Of a DNA stretch of 64,000 nt, positions 1,434 through 18,643 are shown one piece after another. Source of the DNA: Pigmentiphaga humi (GTDB lineage: Bacteria; Pseudomonadota; Gammaproteobacteria; Burkholderiales; Burkholderiaceae_B); NCBI RefSeq assembly GCF_900606115.1, contig NZ_UWPJ01000023.1, positions 248,001 to 312,000 of the forward strand. The letters run 5' to 3'. Made by a program: the position numbers and the translations under genes. The stretch's first letter is position 1, and every line of letters begins with the position of its first letter. The notes beneath the pieces are model-generated. The model saw only the letters and a list, made by a program, of their open reading frames with translations. It was not told where the DNA came from and searched no databases.

Positions 1434-2423
1434 ATGAATTCCGACGACCTCGCCCTCTTTACCCGCGTGGCCGATACCGGCAGCTTTTCCGCTGCTGCGC
1501 TGGCCGACGGCCTGGACACGTCCAATGTCAGCCGCCGTATCGCGCAATTGGAAAAAGACCTGGGCGTGCGCCTGTTCCGCCGCAATGGCAGAGGCGTTGC
1601 GCTGACGGGCCAGGGCGAAGTGCTCCTGACGTATGCGCGCGAGGTGGGCAGCTCGCTCGAGGCGGCGCGGACGGCGGTTTCCAGCACCGCCCGGCGCGGC
1701 CCCGCCCGCATCCGCATCGCCGCCCAGCCCACCATTGCCCGCGCGCTGTTCGGCGACCTGTTCCACGCGCTACGCGCGCATTTCCCGCACAGCCAGGTGC
1801 ATTTCACCGAGGGCCTGGCGGATACCATCCTGGCGGACCTGCAATCCGGCGCGCTGGATCTGGCGGTGCTCTACCGCCCCGAGCACGTGGGCGGCATGGT
1901 GTACGAGCCCCTGCTGCTGGAGCGCCTCTACCTGCTGGCGCCGCCGGGCTTTCCGGTGACGCAGGCGCACCTTTGCGAACATGGCTTGAAAGGCCTGCCG
2001 CTGATCCTGCCCAGCACGCGCCACGGCTTGCGCGTGTTCGTCGAGGCGCTGGCCTCGCGCCATGGCTACGCCCCCACGATCGCGCTGGAAAGCGACGGTT
2101 CGAATGCGCTGACGGTGGACCTGGTGCACAAAGGCTGCGGCTGCTCGGTGCTGCCGCTGGCGACGGTGGCCGACGACATCGCGTGCGGCCGGCTGCAAGG
2201 TTTCCCCATTCCGGGCGAGGATGTGGAGCGGGCGATTTCGCTGGTGCTGGGGCGCTCCGACATGGAAGCCCGCGATCTCTGGCCGCTCACCCGCCTGATC
2301 CGTTCGGTCACGGCCAGGCTGGCGGAGCAGGGGGCCTGGCCGGGAGCCCGCCCGGTGCCGCAGCCCGCGGACGGCCAGGCGGCCCAGGCGTTCAGTCCTT
2401 GGCCAGCCGCGCCTGCGGCGTGA
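1434..2423 (+). CDS. LysR-family transcriptional regulator
   Basis: 329 residues with the LysR layout: a winged helix-turn-helix at about 1-60 (helix around SFSAAALADGLDTSNVSRRI) and then a periplasmic-binding-protein-like effector domain from about 90 to 300. It converges on the TPP-enzyme gene on the other strand and their 3' ends overlap by 32 bp (2392-2423). The last residues, rich in Pro/Ala, are therefore encoded opposite the end of that gene. Since LysR genes usually control divergent neighbours, its target is not obvious here. No strong ribosome-binding site precedes the ATG. Confidence 0.88.
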   Translation: MNSDDLALFTRVADTGSFSAAALADGLDTSNVSRRIAQLEKDLGVRLFRRNGRGVALTGQGEVLLTYAREVGSSLEAARTAVSSTARRGPARIRIAAQPTIARALFGDLFHALRAHFPHSQVHFTEGLADTILADLQSGALDLAVLYRPEHVGGMVYEPLLLERLYLLAPPGFPVTQAHLCEHGLKGLPLILPSTRHGLRVFVEALASRHGYAPTIALESDGSNALTVDLVHKGCGCSVLPLATVADDIACGRLQGFPIPGEDVERAISLVLGRSDMEARDLWPLTRLIRSVTARLAEQGAWPGARPVPQPADGQAAQAFSPWPAAPAA

Positions 2424-4062
2424 TCTGCAGCGGGTCGGTAAGCAGTTCCAGCAAGGCGGGCCGCCCCGATGCGCGGGCGCGTTCGAAGGCGGCCGGGAAA
2501 TCCGCTTCGTGTTCGATGCGTTCGGCATGCGCGCCGAAGGCTCGCGCCAGCGCCACGAAGTCCGGGTTGGCCAGGCGCGTGCCGGAAACGCGGCCGGGAT
2601 ATTCGCGCTCCTGGTGCATGCGTATCGTGCCGAGCATGCCGTTGTTGGCGACGATGACGATGACCGGGGCATCGAACTGCATGGCGGTGGCCAGTTCTTG
2701 CGGGTACATCATGAAGCAGCCGTCGCCGGCGAAGCACACCACGGTGCGTTCGGGATGGGCGAGCTTGGCGGCGACGGCGGCGGGAAAGCCGTAGCCCATG
2801 GCGCCGTTGACCGGCGCCAGTTCGGTGTGCAGCCGCTTGTAGCGGAAGTGCCGATGGACCCAGACGGTGTAGTTGCCGGCGCCGCTGGCGATGATCGCGT
2901 CTTCGGGCAGCGTGTCGGACAAATGTGCGACCACGGCGCCCAGGTCCACGCCGCGCAGCGCGTCGTTGCGCGGCAGCGGGGCGTTGTGGGCCTCGTAGGC
3001 CGCGCGCGCCGCGGCGGTATGGGCGTCCCAGGGGCGCGCGCCGGCCGGCGCGGGCAGTTCGGCAAAGGCGTCGGTGGCCTTGGCCACCGACGCGTTGATG
3101 GGCAGCTCGGCGCGGTAGACGCGGCCGAGTTCCTCGGGGTCGGCATGGACGTGCACCAGCCGCTGGGTGGGTTCGGGGCTGCGCACCAGTTCGTAGCTGC
3201 CCGAGCTGACTTCGGACAGCCGGCTGCCGATGGCGATCAGTAGGTCGGCCTCGCGCAGCGTCTGCGTCAGCGCGGGCGAGATGCCCAGGCCGATCTGGCC
3301 GACGTAGTGCGGATCCCGGTTGTCGAGGATGTCCTGGCGGCGGAACGAAGCCGCCACCGGCAGGTTGTAGGCGGCGGCGAAGCGGCGCAGGTCGGCCTGG
3401 GCCTGCTCGGTCCAGCCGGTTCCGCCGACCACGACCAGCGGGCGCCGGGCCTCGCGCAGCAGCTTCTCCAGTTCGGGCGCGGCGGCCGCATCGGGAGCGG
3501 CTTCGGCGATCCGTGCCGGCGGGATGTCGGCCACGGCCGCCGATCCATACAGCACGTCTTCGGGCAGCGCGACGACCACCGGACCCTTGCGGCCGGATTG
3601 CGCCACGCTGAACGCGCGATTGACGATCTCGGGGATGCGCTCGATGGACTCGATCTCGGTCGCCCATTTGGCCAGTCCGCCGAAGACCTTGCGGTAGTCC
3701 AGTTCCTGGAAGCCTTCGCGCTCCTTGGCGTCGCCGTGCACCTGGCCGACGAACAGGATCATGGGGGTCGAGTCCTGCATGGCGGTATGTACGCCGTTGG
3801 CCGCGTGCGTGGCGCCGGGGCCGCGCGTGACGATGGCGATGCCGGGGCGGCCGGTGAGTTTGCCGTAGGCGTCGGCCATGTTGGAGGCCGCGCCTTCATG
3901 GCGGGTAACGATGGTGCGGATGCCGGGGTGGTCGGCCAGGGCGTCCAGCACGGGCAGGTAGCTCTCGCCGGGGACGCAATAGACGGTATCCGCCAGATTG
4001 CGCCGCAGCGCTTCGACGAGGATCTGGCCGCCGTGGCGGGAAGAGGTATCGGTAGTCGCCAT
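2392..4062 (-). CDS. Thiamine pyrophosphate enzyme, acetolactate-synthase-like
   Basis: 556 residues in the three-domain layout of the TPP-dependent decarboxylase/carboligase family. The catalytic Glu that activates the cofactor is E56 (RHEGAASNMADA). The central domain follows, and the C-terminal PP domain carries the Mg-TPP motif GDGCFMMYPQE ending in VANNG. The ATG at 4062 is preferred over an in-frame GTG 12 bp upstream; neither has a strong ribosome-binding site. No small regulatory subunit lies nearby, and it is not part of an ilv operon, so it is more likely a catabolic 2-oxoacid decarboxylase or carboligase than a biosynthetic acetolactate synthase. The 275 bp before it is shared with the divergent gene at 4338. 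Confidence 0.85.
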   Translation of the reverse strand: MATTDTSSRHGGQILVEALRRNLADTVYCVPGESYLPVLDALADHPGIRTIVTRHEGAASNMADAYGKLTGRPGIAIVTRGPGATHAANGVHTAMQDSTPMILFVGQVHGDAKEREGFQELDYRKVFGGLAKWATEIESIERIPEIVNRAFSVAQSGRKGPVVVALPEDVLYGSAAVADIPPARIAEAAPDAAAAPELEKLLREARRPLVVVGGTGWTEQAQADLRRFAAAYNLPVAASFRRQDILDNRDPHYVGQIGLGISPALTQTLREADLLIAIGSRLSEVSSGSYELVRSPEPTQRLVHVHADPEELGRVYRAELPINASVAKATDAFAELPAPAGARPWDAHTAAARAAYEAHNAPLPRNDALRGVDLGAVVAHLSDTLPEDAIIASGAGNYTVWVHRHFRYKRLHTELAPVNGAMGYGFPAAVAAKLAHPERTVVCFAGDGCFMMYPQELATAMQFDAPVIVIVANNGMLGTIRMHQEREYPGRVSGTRLANPDFVALARAFGAHAERIEHEADFPAAFERARASGRPALLELLTDPLQITPQARLAKD

Positions 4063-4337
4063 GCGTGGTTCCACTGCTGTGAAGAGGGATGGGCGGACGG
4101 TGTCCGGGATCGGTCAAGTATTCCAGGCATTGCGCGCCGCCGGACAGTGGGGGCCGCATAGCAGTTTTGCGATAAATACAAAGCCAGGGCGGTCCTCGCA
4201 AAGCCGCCCGGTTGGCGCGGATTAACCTTTCTGTCAACGTATTGGCTGCATTCCTCAATCGACGCGCTGCGGACCGCGGTGCACACTCCGCCCTCTCATG
4301 CCGGCGCGGTGCCGGCCGTGTCCGGAGATTGCACACG

Positions 4338-5252
4338 ATGGCTGACCATACGCTCGTGACCGCCTTGCGGCGGTATGAGTACAACGATGTTCTGTTCGAC
4401 GAACAAGCCCACGATGGCGTGACGTTCAGGATCGCCACCTACGAAGGCGCGTTGCTGACCGCGATGCGCGCCATGCTGCGCGAACGCGCCTACGATGTCT
4501 GCGAGATGTCGCCGACATCTTATTTGATCGCGCGCCAGGCCGGCGCGCCGCTGATCGCGCTGCCGGTCTTTCCGTTCCGCCAGTATGCGCTGGGCCAGAT
4601 CGTGGCGCGCGCGGACTCCGCGGTCCGGGACGTGCGGGACCTGCCGGGCAAGCGGATCGCCGTGCGCACCTGGGCGCAGCCGACGGCGCTGTGGGTGCGC
4701 TACTACCTGTCGGATTACCTGGGTGTGGATTTGTCGGGCGTGACCTGGGTCTTCGTCGCCGACGACCCGGTGCCCGGCCTGAAGCGGCCGGAAGGCGCGA
4801 TCGAGCGGCGCGGCCAGACGCTGGACGGCCTGCTGGCATCGGGCGAGGCGGACGTGGCCATCGGCCTGCGCCATGTGCCCGAAGGCTGCCGCACCCTGAT
4901 CGCCGATCCGCAGGAATCGGCATCGGCGTGGACCCGGGCGACCGGCATCGTGCCGGCCAACCACCTGGTAGTGATGGACGCCAAGTACGCCGGCACCGAA
5001 GTGCCCGACCTGGTCTGCCAGCGTTTCGAGACGGTGCTGCGCGATTACCTCGCGGCCCACGGCACGCCCGCATCCGGCGTGATCGCGGACCTCGAGCGCA
5101 TCAATCCCGAACTGGATCCGCTGCCCAACGGCCGCCGGGCCAACGCGCGGATGTGGGAAGCCCTGGTGTCGGCCATGGTCGCGCAGGGGATGCTCGAACC
5201 GGTGGCCGAGCCGTTGGCGCTGCTGCACGACTGGGAGCCTGCACGGGCCTGA
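4338..5252 (+). CDS. 4,5-dihydroxyphthalate-decarboxylase-like protein (PBP2 fold)
   Basis: 304 residues. The pattern YDVCEMSPTSYLIARQ followed by PVFPFRQYALGQI is that of the 4,5-dihydroxyphthalate decarboxylase family, which has a type-2 periplasmic-binding-protein fold but acts as a cytoplasmic enzyme. Consistent with that, no signal peptide is present. The family removes a ring carboxylate from dihydroxyphthalate; many members are untested and could instead bind a substrate. The ATG at 4338 follows TCCGGAGATTGCACACG, and the N-terminus aligns well from there. The LigB dioxygenase starts 47 bp downstream, so the likely job is to decarboxylate an aromatic acid before ring cleavage. A paralogue sits at 26631-27545. 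Confidence 0.75.
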   Translation: MADHTLVTALRRYEYNDVLFDEQAHDGVTFRIATYEGALLTAMRAMLRERAYDVCEMSPTSYLIARQAGAPLIALPVFPFRQYALGQIVARADSAVRDVRDLPGKRIAVRTWAQPTALWVRYYLSDYLGVDLSGVTWVFVADDPVPGLKRPEGAIERRGQTLDGLLASGEADVAIGLRHVPEGCRTLIADPQESASAWTRATGIVPANHLVVMDAKYAGTEVPDLVCQRFETVLRDYLAAHGTPASGVIADLERINPELDPLPNGRRANARMWEALVSAMVAQGMLEPVAEPLALLHDWEPARA

Positions 5253-5299
5253 ATCCCGTTCGAGCGCACCCTCCATCAAAAAATGAGTCAGGAGTAGAC

Positions 5300-6364
5300 A
5301 TGGCGAAGTTTCTCGGAGCCATTGGCACCTCGCATTCCCCTCCGATGTTCCTGGAAGTCGAATACTGGGAAAAGCATTCGGAAATCACCGACCAGAAGAA
5401 TCCCGAACTGCAATCCCCGCGTACGGGCAACATAACGCCTTATGCGCAGTTGCTCGAAGAGGCGCAGGCCGCGGATCCCGGCCTGGCCGCGGAGCTGACG
5501 CCCGAGGTATTCGCCGCCAAGTACGAGCGCATGCAAGTGGGCGCGCAGAAATTGCGCGACGTCGTCGCCGAGCAGAAGCCGGACGTGGTCATGGTGATCA
5601 GCGACGACCAGGAGGAGCTGTTTTTCGACGACAACATGCCGTCGCTGTCCATCTACTGGGGCGACTCGTGGGATCTGATCCCATGGAAATCGCACCGGCC
5701 CGGCGCGCACCGGCTGTTCGAAACCTTCCAGCGCGGCTGGGGCGACCGCGAAATGTCGGTGCCGGTGGACGCGGCGATGGGCGAGTACCTGATCAAGGGC
5801 CTGGGCGACCGCGATTTCGACATCTCGCATTTCCGCTATCTGCGCGACGAGTACGGCGGCAGCGTGGGCCCGTCCGGCTATATCGAGGAGCGCCGCTCGC
5901 GCGCGCCGGGCAAGAAAGGGATACCGCATGGCTTCGCCTACGTGGTGAAGGCGGTGATGGACAACCAGCCGATTCCCATGGTGCCGGTGTTCGTGAATAC
6001 CTGCTATCCGCCGAACCGGCCGACCGGCCGCCGCTGCTTCGACTTCGGCGCCGCGCTGCGCGCGCTGGTCGAGGAATACCCCGGCGACCAGCGTGTGCTG
6101 ATGGTGGCTTCGGGCGGCCTGAGCCATTTCGTGCTCGACGAGGAGCTCGACAGGCGGGTCCTGAAAGGCCTGCAGGAGAACGACCGTTCGATTCTGGAAA
6201 ACCTGCCGCGCCTGGATACGCCGACTGGTGAGATCCGCAACTGGATCGTGGCCGCGGGCGCCTGCCAGGACCACCGCTTCGACTTGATCGATTACGTGCC
6301 GACCGCGCGCAGTCCGGCCGGCACGGGAGGCGGCTGGACATTCGGACAGTGGGTCCGGACTTGA
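5300..6364 (+). CDS. LigB-type class III extradiol dioxygenase family protein, one metal ligand replaced
   Basis: 354 residues, related to the catalytic beta subunit of protocatechuate 4,5-dioxygenase. H12 in GTSHSPP corresponds to the first iron ligand and H276 in GGLSHF to the catalytic acid-base His. E311 in TPTGEIRNW corresponds to the carboxylate ligand. The second iron His normally lies in an NDH or DDH motif; here that place reads SDDQEELFF with Q104. This protein therefore has a His-Gln-Glu set, an altered subfamily whose activity is uncertain. No LigA-like small subunit is visible. A good AGGAG precedes the ATG at 5300. It is probably co-transcribed with the decarboxylase-like gene before it and the Bug gene after it. 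Confidence 0.78.
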   Translation: MAKFLGAIGTSHSPPMFLEVEYWEKHSEITDQKNPELQSPRTGNITPYAQLLEEAQAADPGLAAELTPEVFAAKYERMQVGAQKLRDVVAEQKPDVVMVISDDQEELFFDDNMPSLSIYWGDSWDLIPWKSHRPGAHRLFETFQRGWGDREMSVPVDAAMGEYLIKGLGDRDFDISHFRYLRDEYGGSVGPSGYIEERRSRAPGKKGIPHGFAYVVKAVMDNQPIPMVPVFVNTCYPPNRPTGRRCFDFGAALRALVEEYPGDQRVLMVASGGLSHFVLDEELDRRVLKGLQENDRSILENLPRLDTPTGEIRNWIVAAGACQDHRFDLIDYVPTARSPAGTGGGWTFGQWVRT

Positions 6365-6417: not shown

Positions 6418-7404
6418 ATGACCGATCGCCGTGATTTCCTCGCCACCCTGGGCGCAGCCGCGCTGGGCGCCAGCCTGCCCGCCGTGGGGCGGGCGCAGGG
6501 CGCGCCCTGGCCGAGCGCCAGGCCCATCACCTATGTCGTCCCGTTCTTCGCCGGGAGCACTACCGACGTCATCGCCCGGATCATCACTCAGGCCTTGAGC
6601 GAATCGCTCAAGCAGACCTTCGTGGTCGAGAGCAAGGCGGGGGCGGGCGGCATTATCGGCGCCGAGACCGTCGCCAAGGCCGCGCCGGACGGCTACACGC
6701 TCATAGGGGGCACCAGCGGCACGCATGCCGCCAACGTCAGCCTCTACAAGAACCTGCCCTACGACCCGGTCAAGGATTTCGAGCCGGTATCGCTGGTGGG
6801 CGACGTGCCCAGCCTGCTGGTGGCCAATCCCAATCTCGGCGTGAACTCGGTGGCCGACCTGATCGCGCTGCTCAAGAAGAGCGAGAAGGCGCGCGCCTAC
6901 GGTTCGGCCGGCGTGGGCACGACGCCGCACCTGGCGGGGGAACTGTTTTCGCAGATCATCGGCGTACCGCTCCTGCACGTGCCGTACAAGAACCAGTCGG
7001 GCCTGACCGATGTGGTGTCGGGCCAGCTGGCGTTCAAGTTCGACCAGCTGCCGTCCACGCTGCCCCTGCTGCAGTCGGGCAAGATCAAGGTGCTGGCGGT
7101 GACTTCGGCCAAGCGCATCGCGCAACTGCCGGACGTGCCGACGATGATCGAGGCGGGCGTGGCGGGATTCGAATTCACGTCCTGGCACGCCGTGTTCGCG
7201 CCCAAGGGGACGCCCAAGCCCATCGTCGAGCGGCTCAGCACCGAGATCGCCAGGGTGGTGAAGTCGCCGCAGGCCCAGCCCAAGCTGCTCGACCTGGGAC
7301 TGGAGGTGGTGGGAGGCTCGCCGGCGGAGCTGGCCGAGCTGATGCAGCGCGATATCGAGCGCCTGTCGGAATTGATCAAGCGCTCGGGCGCCTCGGTGGG
7401 GTGA
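6418..7404 (+). CDS. Bug/TctC-family tricarboxylate-transporter-type binding protein with Tat signal
   Basis: 328 residues of the Bordetella uptake gene (Bug) family, periplasmic type-2 binding proteins that capture carboxylates. The N-terminus has a twin-arginine motif (RRDFLATLG, from residue 4) and an Ala-rich stretch ending near GRAQG, so export is probably by Tat. Family marks include PITYVVPFFAGSTTDV near the N-terminus of the mature protein and DGYTLIGGTSGTHAAN. The start at 6418 has a clear AGGAG. No TctA/TctB membrane genes are in this cluster. The position after the decarboxylase-like and LigB-type genes suggests that it binds the substrate of that pathway, probably an aromatic acid. 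Confidence 0.88.
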   Translation: MTDRRDFLATLGAAALGASLPAVGRAQGAPWPSARPITYVVPFFAGSTTDVIARIITQALSESLKQTFVVESKAGAGGIIGAETVAKAAPDGYTLIGGTSGTHAANVSLYKNLPYDPVKDFEPVSLVGDVPSLLVANPNLGVNSVADLIALLKKSEKARAYGSAGVGTTPHLAGELFSQIIGVPLLHVPYKNQSGLTDVVSGQLAFKFDQLPSTLPLLQSGKIKVLAVTSAKRIAQLPDVPTMIEAGVAGFEFTSWHAVFAPKGTPKPIVERLSTEIARVVKSPQAQPKLLDLGLEVVGGSPAELAELMQRDIERLSELIKRSGASVG

Positions 7405-7435: not shown

Positions 7436-7918
7436 CTACAGCGGGTAGATGATGGAGTTGAGGATCCACTCGCTGTCGAAAACGCACGTTCGGCTTTTCA
7501 GTTTCAGGCCGCCGGGCGTGCGTTGCAGCCGGTCGAGATAGCGTCCGGCATTGAAGAGCTCGGAGGGTTGGTCCCGCTTGGTGCGGATGACCTGGTAGTT
7601 GGTTTCGGCGACGATCTCATCGTCGTTCGAGGCGGTGATCAACGGTGTCGATATCACGTGCCTTTGATAATAGGGATCGTGATAGAGCGTTTCGCGGATT
7701 CCATAGACGCGATCGCGCAGCATGCCTCGTCCTTCCAGCCACAGGATGCAGAGCGGCAGTCCCTGGTCGTGGTTCTCCCTCGCCTGGATGCGGTAGTGGC
7801 AGTCGTCCAGGAAAAAATCGGGCCAGCGCTCGAATTCGTTCTGGTCCAGGCACGCGCTATAGCTGCCATGGAATGCGATGAGCTCCAGCAGGTCTGCCTG
7901 GTGTCGGGTGAGTTGCAT
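7436..7918 (-). CDS. Ring-hydroxylating oxygenase small (beta) subunit, salicylate-5-hydroxylase (NagH)-like
   Basis: 160 residues with the SnoaL/NTF2-like fold of Rieske oxygenase beta subunits, which build the alpha3beta3 core and have no cofactor. The family pattern is visible as WPDFFLDDCHYRIQARE followed by LRDRVYGIRETL. The start codon lies 2 bp after the stop of the alpha gene, so the two are certainly translated together. The gene converges on the Bug gene, with 31 bp between stops. The alpha subunit's close match to salicylate 5-hydroxylase makes this its small subunit. Confidence 0.85.
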   Translation of the reverse strand: MQLTRHQADLLELIAFHGSYSACLDQNEFERWPDFFLDDCHYRIQARENHDQGLPLCILWLEGRGMLRDRVYGIRETLYHDPYYQRHVISTPLITASNDDEIVAETNYQVIRTKRDQPSELFNAGRYLDRLQRTPGGLKLKSRTCVFDSEWILNSIIYPL

Positions 7919-7920
7919 GG

Positions 7921-9183
7921 CTAGACCTCCATCAGCTTGCGCCAGTATGCATACATGCCGCGCAGGACGTTCTCGGTGATGGTATGCGTCGAGTCGCTCC
8001 AGTCGCGGCCTCCTTGTTCGGCGATCGTCGCCCGGTTCCGGTCGCCGGCATCGTAGGACTCCTGACAGAATTCGAGCACTTCGCCGTCGTCCGCCGAAAC
8101 GTAGCCGGCCGGGCCGAACATGTTGGCCTGGCGCAGGCGGCGGGTTTCCAGGTCCGGCGTATCGTCCTCGAAGCCGAAGTGCGTCCAGACGAAGTCGAAT
8201 TTCCCCGTGCCGCGCGGGATGATCTGCCGCATCGACATGCTGTTGGACTGCTGCTGCACGATCAGGTTGGGAAAGAGCGTCAGCATGACGACCGTGGGGC
8301 CGTTCCACCATTGCTCGCGTTCGATATCGATGATGCGCTCGTCGTGCAGGCGCATGTCGTCCTTGAAGCTGTGCAGGCCCTGGCTGACGTCGCCTTTGCC
8401 CGTGTCCGCCCGCGTCGAGGCCATCGCGCCGTGGCGCCCGTGCGCGTCCATCAGGATGTTCGATTTCTGGTCCCCCCGGATCAGGCCGAACATCAGGAAC
8501 CAGGTATGCAGGAGCCCGACGTGGTAGGGGTCCTTGATGTTCTCTTGCATCAGTTTCCAGTTGCCGGGGATGCGCTGACGGGCATGCCCGTGGATTTTCA
8601 GCTTGCGGCCGTCGAAGGTCCGGTCGAAGTAGGGGAGGATCCGCGGCCCGAGGTAGTCTTCCAGGGATTCGATGTCGTGGGCGAACGAGGCGAAGATCAC
8701 GCCGTTGCGGACGGCGACGTTCAGCTTGTTCAGTCCATGCTCGGCAGGCTTGAAATCCGCGGGCATGCCGCCGCGGATCTCGCCGTTCTTCTTGAGGCCG
8801 CGGCGGAACGGCACGCCGGCCAGGTTGCCCTTCAGGTCATAGGTCCATTGGTGGTAGGGGCACAGGAATTCTTTGACGTTTCCGGTCCGCTCCCGGCAGA
8901 ATGCGGCGCCGCGGTGCGCGCAGATGTTCTCCACCGCGCTGATCGAGCCGTCGTCGGTCCTGGCGACGATGACCGATCGTTCTCCTACCCACGTGCGCTT
9001 GTAGTCGCCGGCGTGGGGAATCTCCGCTTCGAGGCCGACGTAGCTCCAGTGCTTGCCGTAGAAGATCCGGTCGAGTTCCCGGTGGTACAGCGCCTCGTCG
9101 GTATAAACCCAGAAGGGAATCCTGCTGTAGCCTTCGCCTTCCCATCTCGGGACGGGGAGGGCCTGAATGGGCTCCATGTTCAT
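7921..9183 (-). CDS. Ring-hydroxylating oxygenase large (alpha) subunit, salicylate-5-hydroxylase (NagG)-like
   Basis: 420 residues. The N-terminal Rieske domain has C88-H90 (ICAHRG) and C108-H111 (CPYHQW). The catalytic domain has the mononuclear-iron region QENIKDPYHVGLLHTW, with the bridging D218 and ligands H221 and H226. From memory, long stretches match NagG, the large subunit of salicylate 5-hydroxylase, which turns salicylate into gentisate. The ATG at 9183 has a GGAG eight bases upstream and is preferred over an in-frame start 72 bp further out. The neighbours fit: a small subunit right behind it, a divergent NahR-like regulator and a Rieske ferredoxin at 10389. A ferredoxin reductase and a gentisate dioxygenase are absent from the window, so the true substrate could be a substituted salicylate. 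Confidence 0.85.
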   Translation of the reverse strand: MNMEPIQALPVPRWEGEGYSRIPFWVYTDEALYHRELDRIFYGKHWSYVGLEAEIPHAGDYKRTWVGERSVIVARTDDGSISAVENICAHRGAAFCRERTGNVKEFLCPYHQWTYDLKGNLAGVPFRRGLKKNGEIRGGMPADFKPAEHGLNKLNVAVRNGVIFASFAHDIESLEDYLGPRILPYFDRTFDGRKLKIHGHARQRIPGNWKLMQENIKDPYHVGLLHTWFLMFGLIRGDQKSNILMDAHGRHGAMASTRADTGKGDVSQGLHSFKDDMRLHDERIIDIEREQWWNGPTVVMLTLFPNLIVQQQSNSMSMRQIIPRGTGKFDFVWTHFGFEDDTPDLETRRLRQANMFGPAGYVSADDGEVLEFCQESYDAGDRNRATIAEQGGRDWSDSTHTITENVLRGMYAYWRKLMEV

Positions 9184-10388: not shown

Positions 10389-10709
10389 ATGACTGACCGT
10401 TGGGTCGATATCGCCGCACGCAGCGAACTTCCGGACGACGATGTCGTAGCCGTGAGAGCGGAGGGAGTCGAGATCGCTCTCTACGACGTCGGCGGAGAGG
10501 TATTCGCCACCGACAATATCTGTACGCACGGCAATGCCCGGCTTTGCGACGGGTTCCTGGAGGAAGGCGAGATCGAGTGCCCGCTGCACCAGGGCCGGTT
10601 CGACGTGCGTACGGGGAAGGCGCTTTGCGCGCCATTGACGCAGGACGTCCGCACCTTTCCCGCCAAAGTGGACGGCGAACGGATATGGGTGCTGTTTCGT
10701 GATGCATGA
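10389..10709 (+). CDS. Rieske-type [2Fe-2S] ferredoxin
   Basis: 106 residues, the usual size of a Rieske ferredoxin for aromatic-ring oxygenases. The cluster ligands are C45-H47 (ICTHGN) and C64-H67 (CPLHQG). The start at 10389 is set by GAGGAG seven bases upstream. It carries electrons from a reductase to the terminal oxygenase, here most likely the alpha/beta pair at 7436-9183. It follows the NahR-like gene on the same strand, 141 bp away, so it may have its own promoter. No NAD(P)H:ferredoxin reductase is present in the window; the cell must supply one from elsewhere. Confidence 0.88.
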   Translation: MTDRWVDIAARSELPDDDVVAVRAEGVEIALYDVGGEVFATDNICTHGNARLCDGFLEEGEIECPLHQGRFDVRTGKALCAPLTQDVRTFPAKVDGERIWVLFRDA

Positions 10710-14159: not shown

Positions 14160-14645
14160 TTAGCGCGCGGACGCGATGCGTTCCGCAGCGAGCCGCACCG
14201 CGGCGATGATTTCGGGGTAGGTTCCGCACCGGCACAGGTTGCCGGCCAGGTAGTGCTCGATCTGCGCATTGGTGGGCGAGGGATGCAGGTCGAGCAGCTT
14301 GCGCGTCATCATGACGAAGCCGGGCGTGCAGAAACCGCACTGGAACGCGCCGGTGTCGATGAAGGCCTGCTGGATCGGATCGAGTTCGCCGTCCTGCTCG
14401 TGCGCCGCCTCGACCGTCTGCACGTCGCGGCCCTCGAGCTTCCAGGCCGGGCACAGGCAGCCCGAAGCAGGCTGGCCGTCGACGTAGATGGTGCAGCAGC
14501 CGCACAGGCCCTGGCCGCAGCTTTCGCGGGCGCCTTTCAGGCCGCAGCGGTTCAGCACGTCGATGGCGTTGTCGCGCACGTCCACATGGTGGCGCTGGGG
14601 CCGGCCATTGAGCTGGAACTGGATGTCGATGTGGTGGGTGCTCAT
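14160..14645 (-). CDS. Molybdenum hydroxylase small subunit, two [2Fe-2S] clusters
   Basis: 161 residues, typical of the iron-sulfur subunit of xanthine-oxidase-family enzymes. The plant-type cluster uses C43, C48, C51 and C63 (ESCGQGLCGCC then SGC). The second uses C103, C106, C138 and C140 (QCGFCTPGF and NLCRCG). It passes electrons from the molybdenum centre to FAD. The ATG overlaps the stop of the large-subunit gene by four bases (ATGA), and the coxG-like start lies 13 bp after its stop. Confidence 0.92.
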   Translation of the reverse strand: MSTHHIDIQFQLNGRPQRHHVDVRDNAIDVLNRCGLKGARESCGQGLCGCCTIYVDGQPASGCLCPAWKLEGRDVQTVEAAHEQDGELDPIQQAFIDTGAFQCGFCTPGFVMMTRKLLDLHPSPTNAQIEHYLAGNLCRCGTYPEIIAAVRLAAERIASAR

Positions 14646-16939
14646 TGTGTGCTCTCTTGTCCTTGCCGGGCCTGGAGCCCGGCCCAGATCTTCTCGGGGC
14701 GGATGGGAAGATCGGTAATGCGTACGCCCACGGCATCCTCGATGGCCGCGGCCAGCGACGAGGCCACGCCGAAGGCCGCGCTTTCGCCGACGCCCTTGCC
14801 GCCGAACGGGCCGTTGGCCTGGTAGGCGTCCACCGCCTCGCGGCCGATGTAGCGGGGAATGTCCTGGATGCCGGGGATCTTGTATTCGGACAGGCCGGCG
14901 TTGCGCAGCTGGCCCTGCTCGTCGAATTCCATTTCCTCCAGCGTGACGGTGCCCAGCTGCATGATGGCCGAGCCGCTGATCTGGGTGTCGACGACCAGCG
15001 GATTGAGCGCGGTGCCGCAATCGACCACGTTCTCCATGCGCAGGATGGTGTACATGCCGGTCTCGGTGTCGACTTCGACCTCCATGGCGCAGCCGCCTAT
15101 CATCCAGTTCGGCGTGATGTCCTCGGACTGGCCGGTCTGTTTGTCGGGCGACTGGTAGGTGGGCTTGTAGACGCCGGTGCCGATGATGGTGCCGGCCTGC
15201 ATGCCGAACTTGCGCACGAACAGCATGCCCAGGTCGTTCGGATCGACCCGGTCGACGCCGACTTCGCGCGCCATCGCCTGCAGCTTGGCGAGCGCATCCT
15301 CGGCGGCCAGGCGCACGGCGTGGCCCATGTGGAAGGTCGAGCGCGATCCCAGCGTGGCCATGTCGTACGGCGAGGCGTCGGTATCGGGAGAAACGACCGA
15401 GACCGATTCGGCCGGCACGCCGATGACTTCGGAGACGATCATCGCCATCACGGTGTCGGACCCCTGGCCCATGTCCACGGTATTGCCCTGGACGCTGCAG
15501 CTGCCGTCGGCCGCCACCGAGACTGCGGCCACCGACGTGGTGGGCGAGACGCAGGCCTTGATGCCCACGCCTATGCCGCGGCCGCGCCGCTTGCGGCCGG
15601 TGCCGCGCTCGATGGCTTGGTCCCAGCCGAAGCGTTCGGCCAGGCGCTTGAGCACGGCGGGGATGGCGGCGTCCTGCATGACGGTGCCGGTGGCGTGGCG
15701 CTTGCCGTCGGACAGCACGTTGCGCAGCCGGAACTCGAGCGGATCCTGGCCCAGCGCCCGGGCGATGATGTCGGCCTGGCTTTCATAGGCCCATACCAGC
15801 TGCGGAATGCCGAAGCCGCGGAACGCGCCGGCCGGCGGGCGATTGGTGTAGATCGCCACGGAGCTGACGTCCACGTGCTCGATGTCGTACGGCCCGGGCG
15901 CGGTGAAACCGGATTTCTGGGTGACGCGGGGGCCGATGTCGGCATAGGCGCCGCCGTTCCACAGCACCTCGCAGCGGCGCGCGGTAATGCGTCCGCTTTC
16001 GTCCACCGCGGACTCGATCCGGAAGGTGGTGGGGTGGCGGGTGATGGTGTAGAACTGCTCGGCCATCGTCAGCGCCACGCGCACCGGCCGGTGGCACAGC
16101 ATGCTCAGCGCCACGGCCAGCGGTTCGAGCTTGACGTAGAGCTTGCAGCCGAAGCCGCCGCCCAGGAAGGCCGTCTTGATGGTGACCTGGTTCTCGCGCC
16201 AGCCCAGCAGGCGGGCGATCTCGGTGCGCGCGAAGGAGGGCGTCTGGCTGGCGGTGTAGACGTAGGCATGCGAGTGGCGCACGTCGGCGACCGACACCAT
16301 GGGCTCCAGCGGGACGTGCATCACTTGCTGTGTCTTGAAGGTGTTCTTGAACACCCGGTGGGCGCGCGCGAAAGCCTCGTCCACATTGCCTTTCTTGACG
16401 CCGAAGGTCAGCGCCACGTTGGTGTCGCGGATGCCGCTCAGGTGCTTGAGGTCGGCGAAGGTGCCGGCAGGCCGCAGCGAATCGTGCACGTAGATGTCCG
16501 AGTGCATGGCCTCGACCTCGTCCAGCACCGCGGGCAGTTCCTCGATATCGGCCATGACCAGGCCGGCGGCATCCTCGGCCACGTGCGGCGATTCGGCCAC
16601 GACCACGGCAAGCGGTTCGCCCACGTAGCGCACCTTGTCGATGGCCAGGATGGGCTGGTCGTGGAAGGCCGGACCGTAGTAGGGCTCGGGAATGACCGTG
16701 AGGATGTCGGCGCCGGTGTAGACCCCGATGACGCCGGGGACGGCGCGCGCTTCCTCGACGTTCACGCCGAGCAGCCTGCCGTGCGCCACGTGGCTGCGCA
16801 CGATCTTGGCGTGCAGCATGCCGGGCAGCGAAACGTGGTGGGTGTAGTTGGCGCGGCCGGTCACCTTGTCGACCGCCTCGAGGCGGCGCAGGCCCTTGCC
16901 CAGGCGCGTCAGGGAAGGACGTTCGGTCGATGTCGTCAT
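14642..16939 (-). CDS. Molybdenum hydroxylase large subunit (xanthine oxidase family, not CO dehydrogenase)
   Basis: 765 residues binding molybdopterin-cytosine-dinucleotide-type cofactor. The N-terminal ald_Xan_dh_C-like domain covers about 20-130 (GKGLRRLEAVDKVTGRANY) and the Mo-binding domains follow. The Mo-site loop reads GAFRGFGIPQ at about 371-381, and the catalytic Glu sits in GKGVGESAAF at about 717. The CO-dehydrogenase loop AYxCSFR is absent, so CO is excluded. The family hydroxylates electron-poor ring carbons with water as oxygen source, in substrates such as nicotinate, isoquinoline or purines, or reduces hydroxybenzoyl-CoA. ATGA overlaps on both sides tie it to the FAD and iron-sulfur subunits. 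Confidence 0.9.
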   Translation of the reverse strand: MTTSTERPSLTRLGKGLRRLEAVDKVTGRANYTHHVSLPGMLHAKIVRSHVAHGRLLGVNVEEARAVPGVIGVYTGADILTVIPEPYYGPAFHDQPILAIDKVRYVGEPLAVVVAESPHVAEDAAGLVMADIEELPAVLDEVEAMHSDIYVHDSLRPAGTFADLKHLSGIRDTNVALTFGVKKGNVDEAFARAHRVFKNTFKTQQVMHVPLEPMVSVADVRHSHAYVYTASQTPSFARTEIARLLGWRENQVTIKTAFLGGGFGCKLYVKLEPLAVALSMLCHRPVRVALTMAEQFYTITRHPTTFRIESAVDESGRITARRCEVLWNGGAYADIGPRVTQKSGFTAPGPYDIEHVDVSSVAIYTNRPPAGAFRGFGIPQLVWAYESQADIIARALGQDPLEFRLRNVLSDGKRHATGTVMQDAAIPAVLKRLAERFGWDQAIERGTGRKRRGRGIGVGIKACVSPTTSVAAVSVAADGSCSVQGNTVDMGQGSDTVMAMIVSEVIGVPAESVSVVSPDTDASPYDMATLGSRSTFHMGHAVRLAAEDALAKLQAMAREVGVDRVDPNDLGMLFVRKFGMQAGTIIGTGVYKPTYQSPDKQTGQSEDITPNWMIGGCAMEVEVDTETGMYTILRMENVVDCGTALNPLVVDTQISGSAIMQLGTVTLEEMEFDEQGQLRNAGLSEYKIPGIQDIPRYIGREAVDAYQANGPFGGKGVGESAAFGVASSLAAAIEDAVGVRITDLPIRPEKIWAGLQARQGQESTQ

Positions 16940-17814
16940 GCTTGCCTCGTTGCCGGCCGGGCGGTTTTCATGGCCTGCTCGAAAACTTCGGGAAGATAGG
17001 CGCGCAGCAGCGCCTGCTTGTATTCCATGCTGCCGTGGTTGTCGGCCACCAGCGGCGCCTCGGCGACAGCCGCCTCGGCCGCCTTGCGGGCCAGTGCTTC
17101 CGACCAGGGCTGCCCTTCGACCAGCGCCTCGGTCTGTTCCAGGCGCTTGGGGCGGTCGGTGGCGGCGCCGATGAACAGGCGGGCGCGGCCGATGCGGTCG
17201 CCGGTCATGTCGAAGGCGGCCGCGATGCCCAGCGTGGGCCAGTCGTGGCGGGCGCGGGTGGTGACCTTCTTGTAGTAGGCACAGCCTGGCTGGCGGGGAA
17301 TGAACAGCCCGGTGACGAGTTCGTCGGCCGCCAGCGCGGTTTCGTAATAGCCCTGGTAGAGCTGGTCCACCGGGATCTCGCGGCTGCCGCGTACGCTGCG
17401 GGCCGTCACGCGCGCGTCCAGCGCGCTCAGGACCGGCGGCAGATCCATGTGCGGATCGCCGTGCGATAGATAGCCGCCTATCATCGCGACGTTGCGCACG
17501 CGCGGATTGGCCAGGGTGACGAATACCTGCGCCAGCACGGGATGCGAGCGCATCAGGGCGGCGTGGCGTTCCATCTCGCCCAGGGTGGCCAGGGCATCGA
17601 CGCGCGCCTGGCCGTCGTCGCCGACCTGGATCCGGTTCAGCGAGGCGCGCAGGCCTTCCAGGCTGACCAGGCTATCCACGTTGAGCACGCCGGCGCGGCG
17701 CATCAGCGAGATCGCGGTCGAGCCGCTGACCGGGCGGCCGGCGAAATCCGGCGCGGCGATCAGTTCCAGCGCCTCGTCGAGCGAGGCCGGACGCAGCAGT
17801 TCGTAGGGAGACAT
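16936..17814 (-). CDS. Molybdenum hydroxylase medium subunit, FAD-binding
   Basis: 292 residues of the CoxM-like FAD subunit. The FAD domain has a modified first loop, PVSGSTAISLM, in place of the usual GG(T/Q) motif. The second loop is MIGGYLSHGDPHMDLPP, where most relatives have TIGGN, a variant found in hydroxylases of ring compounds. The C-terminal CO_deh_flav_C-type domain follows from about 175. It has no extra iron-sulfur insertion, unlike 4-hydroxybenzoyl-CoA reductase, which argues against reductive use. The ATG at 17814 is 16 bp after the hydrolase stop; its own stop overlaps the large-subunit start. Confidence 0.88.
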   Translation of the reverse strand: MSPYELLRPASLDEALELIAAPDFAGRPVSGSTAISLMRRAGVLNVDSLVSLEGLRASLNRIQVGDDGQARVDALATLGEMERHAALMRSHPVLAQVFVTLANPRVRNVAMIGGYLSHGDPHMDLPPVLSALDARVTARSVRGSREIPVDQLYQGYYETALAADELVTGLFIPRQPGCAYYKKVTTRARHDWPTLGIAAAFDMTGDRIGRARLFIGAATDRPKRLEQTEALVEGQPWSEALARKAAEAAVAEAPLVADNHGSMEYKQALLRAYLPEVFEQAMKTARPATRQA

Positions 17815-17830
17815 GGCGGGATTCCTTCGG

Positions 17831-18643
17831 CTAGCCGCGCGCCAGTTCGCGCAGGCACGCAGCCACGTCCTGCGGGTACTCCAGCGGCGACAGGTGGCGT
17901 GCGCGCGGCAGCACGCGCAGCGTCGATCCTGCAATGGCATCGGCCAGCGCCTGCGCCATGGCCACGGGCGTGGCGTAGTCTTCTTCGCCGACGAGAATGC
18001 GGGTGGGCACGGCGATGCCGGCCAGCCCGCCGCGCTGGTCCATATTGCCCAGCATGCGGCAGGTTTCAAGATAGGCCGGCACGTCGTTGGCCAGGAAGAC
18101 CTCCTTGCAGCGCGCCACCACGTCCGGGTGGGCGCTGCGGAACTCGTCGGTGAACCAGCGGGTTTCCTGGAATGCGATCAGGCTGGCCAACCCCTCCCGG
18201 ACCGCTTTCTGGCCGCGGTCTTCCCAATCGGCCGGCGCGCTGGCGCCGTACCAGGCGGTGGTGTCGAACAGCCCCAGCCCGGCGGTGCGGCCAGGGTGGC
18301 GGATGGCGAAGGCCAGCGCCACGCTGCCGCCCATCGAGGCGCCGCCCACGGCCGCGCGTTCCCAGCCCAGCGCGTCCAGTACCGCCGCGAGATCGTCGGC
18401 GAAGGTCTCGACGCGGTAGGGGCCCGCCGGCCTGCCGGAGCGGCCGTGGCCGCGGGCGTCGATGGCCGCGACCGCGACGTCCGTGCCGAGATGGGCCACG
18501 ACGGAATCCCAGAACGTATGGTCCATGGCCAGCGAGTGGACCAGGGCGATGCGCCGGCGCGAGGCGGGATCGCCATGCAATGCGTAAGCGATGCGGGTGC
18601 CGTCCTGGGCGGAGGCGAACTGCGGGTGGGGCGTTTGAGTCAT
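17831..18643 (-). CDS. Alpha/beta hydrolase, 3-oxoadipate-enol-lactonase-like
   Basis: 270 residues. The nucleophile elbow is GGASMGG with S103. The acid is probably the Asp in VGEEDYATP near 222, and the His lies in RARHLSPLEYP near 248, completing the triad. The oxyanion region reads LVHSLAMDHTFWD. The nearest characterised relatives by pattern are enol-lactonases and carbon-carbon or ester hydrolases of aromatic pathways. It lies directly before the FAD-subunit gene. A role in hydrolysing a lactone, lactam or ring-cleavage product of the pathway is inferred from this position. Confidence 0.82.
   Translation of the reverse strand: MTQTPHPQFASAQDGTRIAYALHGDPASRRRIALVHSLAMDHTFWDSVVAHLGTDVAVAAIDARGHGRSGRPAGPYRVETFADDLAAVLDALGWERAAVGGASMGGSVALAFAIRHPGRTAGLGLFDTTAWYGASAPADWEDRGQKAVREGLASLIAFQETRWFTDEFRSAHPDVVARCKEVFLANDVPAYLETCRMLGNMDQRGGLAGIAVPTRILVGEEDYATPVAMAQALADAIAGSTLRVLPRARHLSPLEYPQDVAACLRELARG

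Follow-up and report, generated by a model that had tools for sequence, protein, structure and literature searches.

The gene at positions 5300-6364 of the window (the whole 64-kb stretch of DNA analyzed here) quite probably encodes a working LigB-fold extradiol ring-cleaving dioxygenase, belonging to a branch in which Gln replaces the second iron-binding His. Judged from sequence comparison, this Gln is probably an inherent variation of the iron center rather than damage. With somewhat less assurance, we also favor the broader reading that LigZ, together with a multi-phylum clade including the window gene, represents natural extradiol dioxygenases whose iron is bound by a 1-His-1-Gln-1-carboxylate set formed with a co-evolved D-Q-x-E pair—a functioning exception to the His-His-Glu rule, apparently unremarked so far, in which at least one member, L042, is a reversal.

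Gene product, fold and active-site residues

The reading frame is open from the ATG at 5300 as far as the stop at 6362-6364. This ATG was taken as the start in preference to a longer one at 4691 because an AGGAG precedes it and the resulting N-terminus is common to relatives; the longer candidate was dropped, as its ORF crosses the upstream gene. The product matches the PF02900 (LigB) profile at 7.7e-17 (61.7 bits; cut-off 26.3), and its ten NCBIfam matches all fall below their respective cut-offs. An AlphaFold2 model built from 11 sequences (mean pLDDT 80, pTM 0.86; below 50 in four stretches, including 106-111) superposes on DesB with Z 28.1 (2.8 Å over 257 residues) and on LigAB with Z 27.2, so that profile and fold match alike place the protein in the PF02900 LigB-fold superfamily. 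A profile search of solved structures returned none of any Gln-type member. The gene and the residues discussed below are as follows.

5290..5294, + strand: AGGAG, ribosome-binding-like, preceding the ATG at 5300 (read in the sequence)
5300..6364, + strand: Gln-type LigB-fold (PF02900) protein of 354 aa (ORF, profile match, fold match to DesB and LigAB)
5333..5335, + strand: His12 codon, first iron ligand by alignment to LigB and DesB His12
5609..5611, + strand: Gln104 codon (CAG), at the place of the iron ligand LigB His61 / DesB His59
5615..5617, + strand: Glu106 codon, an acid co-conserved with Gln (D-Q-x-E/D), of predicted role
5927..5929, + strand: His210 codon, in the column of DesB His124 / LigB His127
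6125..6127, + strand: His276 codon, at LigB His195 / DesB His192 (catalytic base)
6230..6232, + strand: Glu311 codon, at the iron ligand LigB Glu242 / DesB Glu239

Residues were assigned by aligning the protein to solved structures with phmmer and with a HMMER profile of 24 relatives, which matches LigB (1b4u) at 7e-25 and to which DesB was aligned as well. A preliminary description, made from the letters of the window, had read a Gln at the second iron-ligand place and named alignment to LigB and its relatives as the check; that alignment upholds the placement, setting Gln104, within the motif SDDQEE, on LigB His61 and DesB His59. The same comparison bears out the His12, His276 and Glu311 of that description, which align to LigB His12, His195 and Glu242. 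Either His137 or His210 had been proposed as a possible alternative second ligand; neither qualifies, since His137 is unconserved and His210 shares the column of the DesB catalytic His124, the V-D-H histidine of classical members.

Compared with LigAB (protocatechuate 4,5-dioxygenase) and DesB (gallate dioxygenase), the window protein thus shares the fold, His12, both catalytic His and the Glu ligand, and differs in having Gln104 where those enzymes have His61 and His59, respectively; DesB additionally uses Asn57 as an extra ligand. Of the features expected of a canonical class III (type II) His-His-Glu enzyme, the first ligand (His12), the Glu ligand (Glu311) and both catalytic His (His210, His276) are present, whereas the second ligand His (LigB His61) is replaced. 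The protein was therefore not filed as a canonical member: with Gln104 and no other conserved His to substitute for it, its His-Gln-Glu set departs from the His-His-Glu rule, as the preliminary description had argued. The DesB study lists His12, Asn57, His59 and Glu239 as the iron ligands and reports that replacing either His124 or His192, both essential, by Phe leaves no detectable activity (PMC3962378).

Phylogeny and constancy of the Gln-type clade

Gln was found in 23 of the 24 rows of our first alignment of relatives and in all eight plasmid copies fetched later, and this clade-wide occurrence rules out a sequencing error or single-gene accident. The oddity suspected earlier is therefore real at the site but not confined to one protein, being a trait of the clade. 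To examine it at larger scale we used a set of 100 proteins, of which 53 carry Gln, 45 His and 2 Arg at column 104; as the set was gathered by similarity to Gln-type queries, the 53 in 100 is not a population frequency. Rows excluded from both tree and counts were L022, L037, L039, L040, L048, L049, L055, L056, L057, L119b, L132, L133, L132b and L133b; those of them present in the set are near-copies, incomplete rows or the degenerate pair L132b/L133b, a single gene recovered twice that has Asp in the ligand column. No match was obtained for L026, which is a fragment at a contig end, when the rows were collected.

The tree, built without column 104, needs three Gln/His changes. Constraining the 53 Gln rows together against 44 His rows, with L042 left out, gave a likelihood 8.7 above that of the free search (p-AU 0.816), whereas holding them together with L042 forced out was weakly rejected (p-AU 0.030); a single origin of Gln is thus not rejected. 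The window copy is divergent (end branch 0.8) and falls in a 44-row clade of 43 Gln proteins plus L042 (SH-aLRT 97), and its SDDQEE carries the D-Q-x-E/D signature of that clade. L042 (G005:C9:688215-689198) has His at the ligand place inside the Gln clade, reading GDDHKEVF with Glu106 kept. Because forcing it out of the clade is weakly rejected, it looks, on phylogenetic grounds, like a natural Gln-to-His reversal, though its branch is long (0.98).

Across the 53 Gln rows, His12, Asp103, Gln104, His210, His276 and Glu311 are each invariant (53/53). Only columns 12, 210 and 276 are fully conserved as His; other His columns reach at most 43%, and column 137 is absent even from those above 20%. 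Position 106 is Glu or Asp in all 53 Gln rows, against 2 of 44 His rows (L042 apart). This association was spotted after the fact and had not been named beforehand, so we treat the acid at Glu106 as a prediction to test. It does lend itself to another, rather unlikely, arrangement, in which the protein retains its fold and metal site while Glu106 or residue 102 (the place of DesB Asn57) acts as the second ligand, with Gln104 in the second sphere and a His-Glu-Glu-like center, perhaps of another metal such as Mn(II). The co-occurrence of the acid with Gln, the fourth DesB ligand Asn57 from the same loop, and the poor modeling of that loop are consistent with such a center; against it, Gln104 is itself invariant and coincides precisely with the ligand His, the residue at 102 may be D, N, K, S or G among the plasmid and family rows read, and the retention of Glu106 in L042 beside a His ligand fits a supporting role equally well. 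We prefer Gln104 as the second ligand.

Phyletic spread

The 53 Gln rows come from sphingomonad-like genomes, Burkholderiales, Bradyrhizobium, Aminobacter, Rhodococcus and marine SAR202 Chloroflexi. The nearest relatives found are SAR202/Dehalococcoidia Chloroflexi proteins (43-48% identity), recovered from 11 loci, with Gln in all 10 that were aligned; the remaining locus (L056) is split across frames and stands outside alignment A2 and the tree. The window's own genome has 16 PF02900 matches in 5.1 Mb, a count that is itself a strong expansion of ring-cleavage genes. Fourteen of these were aligned (L008 and L009 stand outside this number), seven with Gln (the window copy and L010-L015) and seven with His (L001-L007). 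Of 61 genomes (this one plus 60 relatives), 22 hold something that matches the window protein; with the window copy excluded, identity peaks at 38% for near-full-length matches and at 49% over short stretches.

Profile scans, in which 5 to 10 candidates were scored per genome, extended the survey. The 24-row profile matched 40 of 398 genomes of the phylum at 1e-20, and only the window's own genome, G394 and G378 went beyond 1e-90; His is present in every one of the 27 weaker matches for which loci were given. In 199 genomes of one family, which includes the SYK-6-like genome described below, 12 match at 1e-40, and 18 of 21 distinct proteins read have Gln, while the other three have lost additional site residues as well. 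Plasmid records with a match numbered 105, of which 36 span at least 80% of the query; the eight copies fetched are from Rhodococcus (three), Bradyrhizobium (two), Aminobacter, Diaphorobacter and Burkholderia. Annotation labels among the 25 plasmid matches listed include 'hypothetical protein' and 'protocatechuate 3,4-dioxygenase', the latter being the name of an intradiol enzyme. It is carried by L110 (Diaphorobacter plasmid; Gln read) and H17 (Acidovorax plasmid), where it is a probable misannotation.

Degenerate partners, in which the ligand place is taken by Arg or Asp and the catalytic His is missing, adjoin the Gln-type genes L126, L131 and L130-L133 (genomes G533, G610 and G476). They recall aminophenol dioxygenase, in which an active and an inactive subunit are paired. 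With such degenerate relatives next to the Gln-type copies of sphingomonad-like genomes, enzymes near the clade do lose function.

Genomic neighborhoods and the LigZ locus

In the window, the Gln-type gene has these neighbors:

2392..4062, - strand: thiamine-pyrophosphate (TPP) enzyme, whose relatives recur beside Gln-type copies elsewhere
4338..5252, + strand: upstream relative of 4,5-dihydroxyphthalate decarboxylase (PDB 9jp7 at 9.8e-12; in Pfam, a weak PF12974 match only)
6418..7404, + strand: downstream neighbor, presumably a Bug/TctC-like receptor (no NCBIfam match; homologs common near other copies)
7436..7921, - strand: Rieske oxygenase small subunit, AndAd-like (8.6e-39, under the curated cut-off)
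7921..9183, - strand: Rieske oxygenase large subunit, AndAc-like (2.2e-115, under the curated cut-off)
10389..10709, + strand: Rieske-type ferredoxin, AndAb-like (6e-34, under the curated cut-off)

The decarboxylase-like gene ends 47 bp before the Gln-type gene (queries for it began two codons early, at 4332), and its relatives occur less than 5 kb from a Gln-type gene at L102 and on plasmids from Diaphorobacter and B. multivorans, but not on the P. caribensis plasmid. TPP-enzyme relatives stand beside Gln-type genes at 6 of the 11 Chloroflexi loci and also at L087 and L094. From this setting, the substrate of the window copy is likely to be of the catecholic-acid class, fed by the Rieske and decarboxylase-like enzymes. 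The catabolic cluster is adjoined by a xanthine/CO-dehydrogenase-type hydroxylase with molybdopterin- and FAD-binding subunits (14645-18069, - strand).

A survey of 31 flanking loci plus the window (n=32) identified as recurring neighbors a Rieske family with a LigXa_C match (14/32), an Amidohydro_2 family (9/32) and tandem RraA-type aldolases (6/32). The amidohydrolase representative scores 554 bits to PDB 6e6i/5vn5, that is, LigY, the hydrolase of the OH-DDVA meta-cleavage compound. Of three RraA copies scanned, one matches PRK09262 (CHA aldolase) at 196.5, above the NCBIfam cut-off of 179, and ligK_PcmE at 179.3, below 304.5; the other two are below all cut-offs. The LigY query, run on 15 genomes picked for holding Gln-type copies, recovered 41 matches. 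Each of the 14 that score above 500 bits has a Gln-type gene no more than 3.2 kb away; eight of these come from the window's genus, so they do not amount to 14 independent events. Among the 27 weaker (LigJ-like, 38-52%) matches, at least four adjoin a Gln-type gene and most do not (one of six in the window's own genome).

Several loci have compositions of their own. On the Rhodococcus plasmids (L112 and L114), the Gln-type gene is accompanied by CHA aldolase, PIG-L family, fumarylacetoacetate-hydrolase-family and Rieske genes; the PIG-L member we take to be GalB-like, and the clusters look like a compact 4,5-cleavage-type pathway. On an Aminobacter plasmid (L113), the gene lies between an amidohydrolase gene and three aldolase/RraA genes, and the next gene is annotated 4-hydroxybenzoate 3-monooxygenase, a label that could hint at a protocatechuate-like substrate. 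The SAR202/Dehalococcoidia proteins, though nearest to the window protein and sharing its Gln, differ in their neighbors. Six of these loci (L046, L047, L049, L050, L052 and L056) hold a conserved block in which the Gln-type gene is grouped with a pair of alpha/beta hydrolases and a TPP enzyme; in most of them a dienelactone hydrolase and a luciferase-like oxidoreductase lie upstream. This block is likely an uncharacterized marine aromatic pathway.

The connection to a named enzyme comes from Sphingobium SYK-6. When the PDB LigY letters were searched against 397 genomes of that family, G582 matched at 100% identity over 330 aa and G824 at 99%; we infer that G582 is Sphingobium SYK-6. Its locus runs in the order transporter-like ORF (a name that we presume), Gln-type gene, RraA, RraA, LigY, 1007-aa ORF and, on the opposite strand, a LigXa-like gene. 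The SYK-6 locus tags in the literature are SLG_07720 for ligZ, SLG_07750 for ligY and SLG_07770 for ligXa (PMC12997858), and ddvK and ddvR are placed in the same cluster by another report (PMC6874591). Because the Gln-type gene of G582 lies three genes before ligY, as does SLG_07720, we identify it by position as LigZ. It reads IMGNDQRELF, with the same Gln and the same D-Q-x-E. LigZ, an enzyme of lignin degradation, is called OH-DDVA dioxygenase in the literature (PMC6874591), and LigXacd, LigY, LigZ and two transporters, introduced together into KT2440, are described as converting DDVA to 5-carboxyvanillate in about 30% yield (PMC12997858).

This LigZ resembles the window protein in its clade, its Gln and D-Q-x-E, and its other site residues (BLASTP 3e-48). 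The two nevertheless share only 30% identity, and single LigY-like, LigXa-like and RraA queries found no match at 1e-3 in the 64-kb window. On these two differences, identification of the window gene as a LigZ ortholog was rejected.

That the window's neighbors are unlike those of LigZ, together with the length of its end branch, would suit a paralog that had kept the fold and abandoned ring cleavage for another reaction (hydrolase, decarboxylase or other oxygenase step) or another metal, and Memo1, a fold match only, illustrates the fold serving other ends. We consider this slightly less likely again than the Glu106-centered arrangement, as the protein retains both catalytic His together with the carboxylate and still lies in a setting of Rieske and aromatic-acid genes, a similar Rieske pair (39% and 36%) also adjoining the Gln-type gene of L105. 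The preliminary description had raised another metal or reaction, which may hold for this particular protein, although nothing found demands it.

The same description had also allowed for loss of dioxygenase activity, and here our results offer no support: His12, His210, His276 and Glu311 are invariant in the Gln rows, the clade recurs beside Rieske, LigY-like hydrolase and LigK/RraA-type aldolase genes, and activity is unlikely to have been lost because the gene that is LigZ by position in the SYK-6-like genome has the same Gln. That Gln104 is a loss-of-function change in a dead or dying enzyme is thus very improbable: one canonical ligand is gone and degenerate relatives are known (L126b, L131b, L132b), but these lost several site residues rather than the ligand His alone, while the window gene has an intact frame and a ribosome-binding-like site and the rest of the site is constant across rows from Pseudomonadota, Actinomycetota and Chloroflexi.

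Proposed chemistry and implications

In the reading that we prefer, ring cleavage with Gln104 as second ligand, Fe(II) would be held by His12, the side-chain oxygen of Gln104 and Glu311, the metal contacts being predicted from alignment. Glu106 may steady the Gln amide or give a further ligand, perhaps in replacement of DesB Asn57, and His210 and His276 would act as in DesB. A catechol-type aromatic acid, supplied by the neighboring Rieske oxygenase and/or the decarboxylase-like enzyme, would be held through its two hydroxyls and then cut next to the diol with O2.

Gln has a precedent in methylphosphonate synthase (MPnS), an enzyme of unrelated fold, where it stands in the carboxylate's place, whereas the window Gln replaces a His. 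In that synthase Gln is described as a natural iron ligand (PMC11978286). The authors of the DesB study could not exclude a productive coordination sphere other than His-His-Glu (PMC3962378); as the DesB sphere may thus differ, tolerance at the ligand site is plausible. Our search of the open-access literature, mostly by titles and the beginnings of abstracts, found no description of Gln at the second ligand place.

From the sequence comparisons, the Gln site is a clade-wide variant of a known enzyme kind, and LigZ appears to share it. The 2-His-1-carboxylate triad is the textbook signature by which these genes are called active or dead, and if our reading is true, a clade that still cleaves rings with Gln substituted for one of those His would show the rule to be breakable. 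The clade would then offer a natural test of how a neutral ligand tunes O2 activation, with the His form of L042 as a ready natural comparison. It would also correct the labels given to a family whose genes keep turning up in lignin-type and other aromatic-acid clusters as well as in marine SAR202 bacteria.
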